A stretch of 54,956 nt of DNA from Limnochordia bacterium (GTDB taxonomy: Bacteria > Bacillota > Limnochordia > Darwinibacteriales > DTU012), in assembly GCA_007116145.1 (NCBI GenBank), contig SKJB01000003.1, positions 1-54,956 of the forward strand. Reading direction: 5' to 3'. Below the pieces are notes generated by a model. The model searched no databases. It was not told where the DNA came from and worked only from the letters and a program-made list of their open reading frames with translations. Shown here piece after piece: positions 43,645 to 45,818 of this stretch (positions are counted from its first letter, which is position 1; every line of letters begins with the position of its first letter). Made by a program: the position numbers and the translations under genes.

Positions 43645-44109
43645 CTAAGGACAAGTTAATTCTAGTGTTAAATATAGGCGATCCTCACCAACCCCATATT
43701 CATTGGGCAAGAACTCCATCTGAACATAGTTACACTTCGTACAATATAGATGCAGAGCTTCGGTGTTATTTGGATCTACGGTTAGACATACCTTTGTGAA
43801 CCCTTGTTTTCTTAAACTGGAATGAGCTGTTGACAACAGCTGAAATCCTAACCCTTGTCCACGATGATCTTGGTGAACCGCTAGTCCAAATAAATAAGCA
43901 GTAGTTTCATTGTGGAAATCTCGCATAAACTCGGCGACTGCCGCAATATGTCCGCTATTTTCCAAAACAAAGACTTGTCCATGACGTAAAAAAGGCATTA
44001 GAAACCAGTGATTCATACCTCCACTACCAAATGCTTCTTGTTCTATGGCAATAATCTGGGCAATCTCAAACTCATTTTTACTTACAAGTTCTTTAAATAT
44101 ATAATCCAT
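43645..44109 (-). CDS. GNAT family N-acetyltransferase
   Basis: The 154-aa GNAT protein has the acetyl-CoA loop in VHQDHRGQGLGFQLL, preceded by YLFGLAVHQ and followed by CLTVDPNNTEALHLY. The layout resembles RimI, but the substrate is not predictable and no rimI neighbours are present. GAGGG is upstream of the ATG. It is inserted between cdd (14 bp) and era (10 bp), which are adjacent in B. subtilis, and is likely co-transcribed. Confidence 0.85.
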   Translation of the reverse strand: MDYIFKELVSKNEFEIAQIIAIEQEAFGSGGMNHWFLMPFLRHGQVFVLENSGHIAAVAEFMRDFHNETTAYLFGLAVHQDHRGQGLGFQLLSTAHSSLRKQGFTKVCLTVDPNNTEALHLYCTKCNYVQMEFLPNEYGVGEDRLYLTLELTCP

Positions 44110-44123
44110 TTAAACATACACCC

Positions 44124-44519
44124 TCATAGCAGTTCCTTTCTGCTAAAGCTATCTGGGAGCAACTGGGATATTTTGCGATAAGCAATGTCTCCTTGTAAAT
44201 TAGCCAAATAAATCTCTACCTCATCATCGAAAAACTCCATTAAAACCTGACGACAAACACCACATGGTGCACAGCCTTTGGCTGTATCAGCGACAATGGC
44301 AAGAGCCACAAACTCCCGTTCACCTTGGGATATTGCATTAAAAATCGCCGTACGTTCCGCACAATTTGTGGGACTGTAGGCCGCGTTTTCAATATTACAG
44401 CCTAGGTATATATTACCACTCTTTGCTAATATGGCTGCCCCCACCTTAAATCCTGAATAGGGCACATATGCCCTTGTCCTTGCTAACTTGGCATGTTTTA
44501 CTAATTCTTGAGGACTCAT
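44124..44519 (-). CDS. cdd: Cytidine deaminase
   Basis: The 131-aa tetrameric-type enzyme binds zinc through Cys53 (NCAERTA; Glu55 is the proton shuttle), Cys86 and Cys89 (PCGVCRQ). It deaminates cytidine and deoxycytidine to uridine forms. GGAGG precedes the ATG, and an extended -10 promoter lies about 35 bases upstream. It heads a cdd-GNAT-era unit. Confidence 0.96.
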   Translation of the reverse strand: MSPQELVKHAKLARTRAYVPYSGFKVGAAILAKSGNIYLGCNIENAAYSPTNCAERTAIFNAISQGEREFVALAIVADTAKGCAPCGVCRQVLMEFFDDEVEIYLANLQGDIAYRKISQLLPDSFSRKELL

Positions 44520-44647: not shown

Positions 44648-45340
44648 TCATCCCTTCATCTGAAAAAAGAACACGGTCACTAGAATTCCTAATAACGCTC
44701 CGACGACAACTTCCCAACGAGAGTGAAATTTAGCTTCTAAGCGACTCTGGGCCACCAAGAACGCTAGCAGCAGCCCTAAAAGTACTACAAACCCCTCTAC
44801 CGAGAAAAAAATGGCTGTGGCCACGCTAAAGGCGATCGCAGCATGCCCGCTAGGCATTCCTCCTTGAAAAAAATTGGACCAACCAGCCCAAGCCTTCGCT
44901 GCAATCGTAATCACAATAACAGCGAGAAGAGCCATTAGTGTGAGATAAGGTTTTGTGATGCTTTGCCGTAGCAGGGCAGGTTGAATAAATAGGAGGCGTT
45001 CTATAAATATGACATACGCTACACACACAGAGATTAACGATGTTACCAACACTGCCCCTGCAGCTACATTCTTCGCTATCTTCGCTAACGGATGGTATTC
45101 CCGGGTGACTAAATTTACAACTTCTTCAATGGCCGTATTGATCATTTCTGCCGAAATCACTAAACCAACGGTGATTAGTAAAACTAATAGCTCCAATCGA
45201 TTTACATCCAGAATAGAACCGAATACCAGCACTAAAAGCCCTAAAAGAAAATGTACTTTCATATTACGTTGGGTCTTTAGTGCGTATAACACACCCTCAA
45301 TTGCGCAGGTGAAACTGTGTACTAGATTTTTTGAACGCAA
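44648..45340 (-). CDS. dgkA: Undecaprenol/diacylglycerol kinase fused to a PAP2 phosphatase domain
   Basis: In this 230-aa membrane protein residues 1-115 are DgkA-like, with the signature AEMINTAIEEVVNLV. Residues 130-225 are PAP2-like, with PSGH at 163-166 and SR...H206 in SRLEAKFH. The PAP2 C1 motif (KxxxxxxRP) is absent and position 210 is Glu where C3 has Asp. Kinase and lipid-phosphate phosphatase on one chain could recycle undecaprenyl phosphate or phosphatidic acid. The start is TTG 45340, five bases after GGGGGAG; the GTG seven codons earlier lies in ybeY. Confidence 0.85.
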   Translation of the reverse strand: MRSKNLVHSFTCAIEGVLYALKTQRNMKVHFLLGLLVLVFGSILDVNRLELLVLLITVGLVISAEMINTAIEEVVNLVTREYHPLAKIAKNVAAGAVLVTSLISVCVAYVIFIERLLFIQPALLRQSITKPYLTLMALLAVIVITIAAKAWAGWSNFFQGGMPSGHAAIAFSVATAIFFSVEGFVVLLGLLLAFLVAQSRLEAKFHSRWEVVVGALLGILVTVFFFQMKG

Positions 45341-45353
45341 ATAGTCTCCCCCT

Positions 45354-45818
45354 TCACTCACGGGCTAATTGACACGCTTCCATGAGTTGTTCCTCTTTCT
45401 TACGCATCTCATGCTGCTCATCTTCGTTGCCATGGTCATATCCGAGTAAATGTAATATCCCATGAGCAACTAAATACCCTACTTCTCGTCGTAAACTATG
45501 ACAATACTCCTGGCTTTGTTCTACGGCCTTCTCTAGAGATATAACAACATCCCCAAGCATGCGCGGCATCCCCGCAATGTGATTAAATTCCTCTCCTTCA
45601 TCCTGAGCAAAGGATAAGACATCGGTAGCTATATCCTTATGCCGATACTCCTTGTTTAATTGTTGGATCCTTTGGTTATCGGTAAACGTAACACTTACCT
45701 CAACATCACTATCCATTTTCGCTAACGCGATACCTTGGGTAACAATTTTCTCTGTAAGAGGGATAAAATCCGCGATCTCTACCCTATTTTGTTCGTTACT
45801 AATATATACCTCCACCAT
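45354..45818 (-). CDS. ybeY: Endoribonuclease YbeY (rRNA maturation)
   Basis: The 154-aa UPF0054 metalloprotein has the zinc motif HGILHLLGYDH with His119, His123 and His129. The conserved Arg/Asp lie in EYRHKDIATDVLSF. It takes part in 16S rRNA 3' processing and ribosome quality control. Its ATG overlaps the pgpH stop (TAATG). Its position between pgpH and dgkA is the conserved yqfF-yqfG-dgkA order. Confidence 0.96.
   Translation of the reverse strand: MVEVYISNEQNRVEIADFIPLTEKIVTQGIALAKMDSDVEVSVTFTDNQRIQQLNKEYRHKDIATDVLSFAQDEGEEFNHIAGMPRMLGDVVISLEKAVEQSQEYCHSLRREVGYLVAHGILHLLGYDHGNEDEQHEMRKKEEQLMEACQLARE

Follow-up and report, generated by a model that had tools for sequence, protein, structure and literature searches.

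A DgkA-PAP2 fusion protein of altered phosphatase signature whose PAP2 half probably faces the cytoplasm

The undecaprenyl diphosphate (Und-PP) phosphatases known so far are outward-facing, and the lack of a counterpart that faces the cytoplasm has been remarked on. LpxE, for example, has its active site in the periplasm. LpxE is described as carrying periplasmic-surface helices and as hydrolysing C55-PP as well (PMC6581854), the signature residues of PgpB are placed at the membrane-periplasm interface (PMC7413402), and the confinement of Und-PP dephosphorylation to the outer leaflet is posed as an open question (PMC12826051, 2025). DgkA has three transmembrane (TM) helices and active sites at the membrane/cytoplasm interface, with Arg92 located in H3 at its cytoplasmic end; helix 3 starts on the cytoplasmic side, the loop that joins it to helix 2 being cytosolic (PMC6408475). 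The B. subtilis enzyme converts undecaprenol to undecaprenyl phosphate (Und-P) (PMC5723303). The hpap2 and dgkA genes that have been discussed in the neighbourhood of mcr genes are separate, and the word "fusion" is not used there (PMC7559476). No description of a DgkA-PAP2 fusion was found among the titles and abstract openings of the open-licence literature. The architecture may already figure in domain databases.

Such a fusion is encoded in the window, the term used here for the whole stretch of 54,956 nucleotides that was analysed (Limnochordia bacterium, assembly GCA_007116145.1, contig SKJB01000003.1), and the features of the locus are collected in Table 1.

Table 1. Positions within the window of the fusion gene, its parts and its neighbours
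Feature	Position	Strand	Basis or remark
DgkA-PAP2 fusion gene, 230 aa, TTG start	44648..45340	-	Open reading frame and profile matches
Shine-Dalgarno-like AAGGGGGAG	45346..45354	-	Read directly; abuts the ybeY end, 5 nt 5' of the TTG
DgkA half, surface helix and three predicted TM helices	45005..45307	-	Profile and predicted model
Kinase residues Glu72, Asn75, Glu79, Lys97	45071..45148	-	Alignment to E. coli E69, N72, E76, K94
Linker between the halves, predicted outer side	44957..45004	-	Sidedness inferred
PAP2 core, residues 136-235, four predicted TM helices	44657..44956	-	Predicted model
Degenerate C1, Lys156-x6-Asn163-Phe164 for KxxxxxxRP	44870..44896	-	Alignments
C2, GGMPSGH (167-173)	44843..44863	-	Alignments; PSGH is 170-173
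C3, SRLEAKFHSRWE (206-217), Glu in place of Asp	44711..44746	-	SR-x5-H is 206-213; Glu217
ybeY, conserved upstream neighbour	45354..45818	-	Open reading frame and flank comparison
Cytidine deaminase gene (cdd), downstream neighbour	44124..44519	-	Homologue in 51 of 80 loci

The reading frame can be opened at a GTG inside the 3' end of ybeY (44648-45361, 237 aa), and the residue numbering used here follows this longer frame, seven being subtracted to obtain that of the 230-aa protein. The start codon is likely the TTG at 45340, as read from the sequence 5 nt after the Shine-Dalgarno-like stretch, and Met occupies this column in 74/110 aligned sequences; the extent given to the gene in a preliminary description of this DNA is thereby upheld. 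The gene order phoH-yqfF-ybeY-dgkA-cdd-era is that of B. subtilis. Between cdd and era lies a gene (43645-44109, minus strand) that by eye resembles a GNAT acetyltransferase, a homologue of which stands close to the fusion in just 6 of 80 named loci. In the window genome the fusion is the sole DgkA match, alongside two further PAP2 matches, one BacA and one DUF212 protein.

A profile search of genome contigs yielded 267 relatives, the best 80 of which were taken as named loci; these were joined by the window's own fusion and, from a sample of the window's phylum, by the 29 best fusions and 18 more to give the 128 fusions compared here. In that sample the genomes with a fusion of this length number at least 48 out of 299, counting that of the window, and 242 have any match. 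Each of the first 110 loci, counting the window, has an open frame of at least 200 aa, although stops were flagged inside the matched range of L033, L065 and L108. Because the first 109 homologues were chosen by likeness to the window protein, decayed copies are under-represented among them; the 18 later fusions were added as an offset, and 4 of these lack one catalytic His. The labels of the 80 loci are Bacillota (55), Nitrospirota (10), Actinomycetota (7), Omnitrophota (3), Thermodesulfobacteriota (2), Vulcanimicrobiota (1) and Pseudomonadota (1), with one unlabelled, these being the submitters' own labels on records many of which are metagenome bins. Within flanks of 3 kb or less, a YbeY homologue accompanies 78/80 named loci (all except L098 and L106), PhoH 57, YqfF 50, Cdd 51 and Era 57. 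Since proteins of this architecture turn up under several phylum labels, and ybeY lies so regularly beside their genes, the fusion is not a chance event. Among plasmid records there are five matches, of which one, to a 2.6-Mb record of Acetoanaerobium noterae, spans most of the length, and these five give no sign of a mobile gene.

With a profile of the PAP2 half only (A2), the 299 genomes gave 48 matches of at least 66.7 bits, namely 47 fusions and one fragment of 74 aa, truncated where its contig ends (L229, genome G032); save for this fragment, no DgkA-free copy of the PAP2 subtype was found in the 299 genomes. The next matches score 46.8 bits or less and mostly run from C2 onward, and those that were read are canonical PAP2s, among which the fusion that has diverged furthest (G278, 43 bits) stands in this ranking. 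Separate origins of the fusion were considered, and a single clade of fusion kinases was not rejected in a comparison of 56 thinned fusions with 39 standalones (p-AU 0.677), though one origin is not thereby proven.

Both domains that the preliminary description had seen in the window protein score over their cut-offs. DAGK_prokar (PF01219) reaches 115.4 bits on residues 19-119 (cut-off 22.3) and PAP2 (PF01569) 35.7 bits on residues 166-235 (cut-off 27.2), the latter model being matched by all 54 members of fusion family A1 at E 0.01. The kinase half looks, from its sequence, like an ordinary Gram-positive-type DgkA: the four kinase residues are present in 128/128 fusions and in 39/39 standalone DgkA proteins, and this part of the predicted model matches E. 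coli DgkA with a Z of 13.6. Loss of kinase activity through Gln31 and Asn98 (E. coli E28 and D95) was rejected, because the phylum's standalone DgkA proteins have these two residues just as often, Gln31 occurring in 69/110 fusions and 29/39 standalones and Asn98 in 46/110 and 22/39, respectively.

In the PAP2 half the classical signature is partly altered. The window protein has the PSGH of C2 and SR-x5-H of C3 and has neither KxxxxxxRP nor the C3 Asp, its place being taken by Glu217, all of which had been read correctly beforehand. It had further been described as lacking C1, with a normal C1 elsewhere in fusion homologues named as a counter-finding. In the window protein there is indeed no KxxxxxxRP, but the C1 Lys156 is kept and aligned, as it is in 127/128 fusions counting the window protein; across the family the Arg-Pro is usually replaced, but the Lys is near-invariant and a full KxxxxxxRP is found in 10/128, at exactly the same position and not elsewhere. 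Of these ten, five belong to genomes of the window's phylum (L014, L026, L029, L032, L034) and four to Nitrospirota (L101, L108, L109, L110), the tenth being L236, one of the 18 later-added fusions. At residues 163-164, TP stands in 47 of the 110 sequences, TY in 18 and RP in 9, the window protein having NF, and the family pattern may be written Lys-x6-(Thr, Arg, others)-(Pro, Tyr, Phe) followed by GG-x-x-SGH. When the profiles of the fusion and of 21 canonical PAP2s from the phylum are aligned (prob. 98.7), Lys156 falls on the C1 Lys and Asn163-Phe164 on the Arg-Pro; the LpxE alignment gives the same placement of C1, at a score that is meaningless there (2.1 bits). The spacing from this Lys to the C2 Ser is 15 residues in 84/110 fusions versus 28-30 in 16/19 canonical PAP2s, the other three being L230, with 18 residues, and the misparsed L211 and L225. 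As judged from these alignments, C1 is worn rather than absent, its Lys kept, its Arg-Pro replaced and the C1-C2 loop about half as long. The spacing and the comparison of residues 163-164 suggest either that the loop was shortened and the Arg mostly lost, or that the Arg was never present in some lineages.

The remaining catalytic positions are strongly conserved in the 128 fusions: Ser171 of C2 in all, His173 in 124, Arg207 of C3 in all and His213 in 126, the four occurring together in 123/128 and in 44/48 within the phylum sample. Position 217 is Glu in 114, Gln in 13, Gly in 1 and Asp in none. Arg163 and Arg/Lys/Gln166 are mutually exclusive (0/9 versus 91/100; Fisher 1e-8, with L114 dropped and the 18 later-added fusions left out), but by phylogeny the independent pairs number 2, or at most 4, too few for a sign test. 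A basic residue or Gln at 166 as a substitute for the C1 Arg is for this reason a lead only. A phosphate ligand shifted by three residues, from 163 to 166, is possible.

In a few copies the PAP2 half has decayed. L114 has lost both His, L249 has lost His213, Lys156 and Glu217, and in L235, L237 and L239 the C2 His is replaced by Gln, the kinase residues being intact in all five; in L155 (genome G005), which is outside the 128, the PAP2 motifs are apparently all gone, and further decayed fusions may exist beyond the matches listed in the phylum sample. By the residue counts above, the PAP2 half is thus preserved in the majority of copies; in a few it seems to have been given up, with the kinase remaining. 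In addition, L125, L128, L257, L260 and L261 are DgkA proteins that apparently end just past the first PAP2 helix and are remnant-like.

The predicted model of the window protein (mean pLDDT 82.0, pTM 0.57) comprises a surface helix (13-30), the DgkA helices 32-50, 55-85 and 91-124, a short helix 128-133 and the PAP2 helices 137-159, 172-187, 190-209 and 215-234. That of the KxxxxxxRP-bearing L101 (pLDDT 88.2, pTM 0.52) shows the same helix order, with the third kinase helix extending to residue 129 and no short helix; both pTM values denote low inter-domain confidence. Residues 136-235 superpose best on LpxE (6ebu; Z 8.6, rmsd 1.9, 98 residues), followed by B. subtilis YodM/PgpB (5jki; Z 7.6), with aquaporin (Z 6.9) scoring above human LPP1 (6.8) and E. 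coli PgpB (6.3). Foldseek with the model gave no match at E 0.001, LpxE standing at E 0.039; the same LpxE chain is found by the fusion profile at E 4.7e-8 and by the PAP2-half profile at E 1.7e-9. Hydropathy alone gives 5 to 7 segments per sequence and does not resolve seven TM helices.

Since helix 3 of DgkA begins on the cytoplasmic side, the chain would exit the kinase domain outside; the first PAP2 helix would therefore run inward, the PAP2 core would be inverted with respect to PgpB, and Lys156, GGMPSGH and SR-x5-H would come to lie on the inner side beside the kinase site. From the orientation of DgkA and the predicted helices, the PAP2 active site is thus probably on the cytoplasmic face, unlike that of the known enzymes of this kind, and this predicted orientation, which the preliminary description had not noticed, is the main new point on the DgkA-PAP2 fusion. 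The loop charges are mixed and back the inversion weakly. With the catalytic Lys and Arg included, the fusions show a positive net charge in loops 2, 4 and 6 and at the N-terminus, but in the outer linker too. For the opposite-side loops, the charge of 109 fusions versus 19 canonical PAP2s did not differ significantly (p 0.18 and 0.15, one misparsed row and one outlier being included); the test on the C1-C2 loop was weak (p 0.004 with 109 rows, 0.03 when thinned to 40), and for the C3 loop there was no difference from canonical PAP2s (p 0.97).

A model of function, which we favour tentatively and with somewhat less than even confidence, may be built on this orientation. It proposes a bifunctional membrane enzyme with both sites cytoplasmic, in which the DgkA half would use ATP to phosphorylate undecaprenol or a similar lipid alcohol. 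The PAP2 half would be a competent phosphatase, though one whose signature is altered (Lys-x6-Thr/Arg/Asn; GGxxSGH; SR-x5-H-x3-Glu), and its core of four helices would be inverted relative to PgpB as the preceding three-helix domain is predicted to end outside. Most likely this half would remove one phosphate from Und-PP in the inner leaflet, so that both halves would feed Und-P. This substrate is preferred because of the mutant pattern of PgpB, the action of LpxE on C55-PP and the product of B. subtilis DgkA. In PgpB, R104A retains 2.0% of activity on C55-PP versus 0.4% on PGP, P105A 3%, and H163A 27% versus 0.09%; the complementation threshold is about 3% on C55-PP, and R104A rescued C55-PP strains only with IPTG (PMC7413402). 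By analogy there is a hint that loss of the residues altered in the fusions, the C1 Arg and in a few copies the C2 His, is milder on a diphosphate than on PGP. However, the C1 Arg does matter in PgpB, and D211A retains 0.07% on C55-PP and 0.1% on PGP (PMC7413402), where, at this charge-relay position, the fusions have Glu or Gln, which by the same analogy argues against the favoured model. Loss of the counterparts of the Ser and the nucleophilic C3 His, both kept in the fusions, is severe, S161A retaining 0.14% and 0.03%, respectively, and H207A having no detectable activity; conflicting data on PgpB mutants from other groups are also reported (PMC7413402). K97A retains 118% on C55-PP and 298% on PGP (PMC7413402) though the fusions keep the C1 Lys, and the mapping of roles is therefore imperfect. 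The fusion as sole Und-PP phosphatase was rejected because BacA occurs in 79/80 genomes examined, the single miss being a genome that is 72% complete.

The main rival of the Und-PP reading is an opposing Und-P phosphatase, in which the PAP2 half would turn Und-P into undecaprenol in the inner leaflet and carrier lipid would be stored and released by a reversible switch. We regard this as unlikely, although both sites would lie in one leaflet, the origin of undecaprenol has been called open, with an Und-P phosphatase activity of S. aureus lacking an assigned protein (PMC5723303), and the C2 His that PgpB needs for the monoester PGP (PMC7413402) is kept in 124/128 fusions. Such a switch would waste ATP unless regulated, Gln replaces this His in 4/128 fusions, and loss of the C1 Arg, common in fusions, hurts PgpB more on PGP than on C55-PP (PMC7413402). 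The preliminary description had likewise supposed opposing activities on one chain, a supposition that would fail with Und-PP as substrate, since both halves would then yield the same product, Und-P. The least probable of the readings is a glycerolipid version, in which diacylglycerol would be the substrate of the kinase and phosphatidic acid or PGP that of the phosphatase. E. coli DgkA is a diacylglycerol kinase (PMC4703834), YodM acts on PGP and weakly on C55-PP (PMC6581854), and the best DAGK_cat (PF00781) score in the window genome is 20.8 bits, under the 23.6 cut-off; on the other hand, B. subtilis DgkA phosphorylates undecaprenol (PMC5723303), and PgpB without its C1 Arg keeps only 0.4% of its PGP activity (PMC7413402).

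It is improbable that the PAP2 half is a non-catalytic partner that binds lipid or stabilises the kinase. The C1 Arg is mostly missing, L114, L155 and L249 lack catalytic residues, and the five remnant-like proteins apparently retain the first PAP2 helix alone; such a state thus seems to occur but to be rare, and the joint presence of the C2 Ser and His and the C3 Arg and His in most fusions would be needless for binding alone. Between the two options that the preliminary description had left side by side, a reduced but active phosphatase is favoured over the partner, both by these residues and by the superposition of the modelled core on LpxE. Of similarly low probability is an active PAP2 half that faces outward like PgpB, with the linker or the DgkA half off the predicted path. 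The linker is basic, averaging 20 residues with 3.04 K+R versus 1.90 D+E per sequence, and the positive-inside rule would put it inside; however, with about 3 K/R in 20 residues it is too polar for a TM helix, and the window and L101 models both show three kinase TM helices before the PAP2 core.

The inverted model, if correct, may be relevant to the way in which the carrier lipid of the bacterial cell wall is made. It could even be that DgkA-PAP2 is the missing cytoplasm-facing undecaprenyl-(di)phosphate phosphatase, an inverted enzyme found only as a fusion and acting on Und-PP (or from Und-P to undecaprenol) in the inner leaflet with no flipping, a proposal that we consider possible but doubtful. 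If true, the GG-plus-HxxxE signature shared with DUF212 would be the hallmark of a broader group of PAP2 proteins that face inward. With a helix order that would place a PAP2 site near a DgkA-type kinase on the inner face, this widespread fusion makes the questions of where Und-PP is dephosphorylated and which protein dephosphorylates Und-P testable with one gene, and it illustrates the drift of a phosphatase signature (C1 Arg lost, C3 Asp to Glu) with most catalytic residues kept.

Compared with known systems, the kinase half resembles DgkA (PF01219) in its fold of a surface helix and three TM helices and in its invariant Glu, Asn, Glu and Lys, and differs by the extra C-terminal PAP2 core and by Gln at 31 and Asn at 98, both frequent in the phylum's standalones too. 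Known DgkA is a homotrimer whose sites are shared between subunits and an ATP-dependent lipid kinase. DUF212 (PF02681) shares GGMPS-x-H and H-x3-Glu-Val with the fusion, and the two match in profile-profile comparison (prob. 97.95); the DUF212 Pfam model is matched by 20/54 fusions at E 0.01, the window protein scoring 22.5 bits on residues 145-187, under the 26.5 cut-off. The DUF212 proteins that were read differ in having YDAAGVRR and a long loop where the fusion has SR-x5-H, and no DgkA half. The DUF212 loci L186-L209 resemble a bare four-helix PAP2 core with basic active-side loops. In the 16/21 sequences that could be parsed, these loops average 3.38 and 7.12 K+R versus 1.25 and 5.12 D+E, and the opposite turn 0.19 versus 1.19; from such charges, DUF212 proteins may also be inward-facing. 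SepP and LpxE are the only NCBIfam matches of the PAP2 half, and their scores of 24 and 19.6 bits are far under the respective cut-offs of 250 and 177. The fusion differs from the solved LpxE chain, which has Lys-x6-Arg, PSGD and H-x3-D, and yet LpxE of Aquifex aeolicus (6ebu) is the best solved match of this half by both profile and model. With PgpB and YodM the fusion shares the four-helix core, the C2 Ser and His and the C3 Arg and His; PgpB differs in having its site on the outer face, where the inner face is predicted for the fusion, and in its C1-C2 region of 70 residues, its C1 Arg104 and its C3 Asp211 (PMC7413402).
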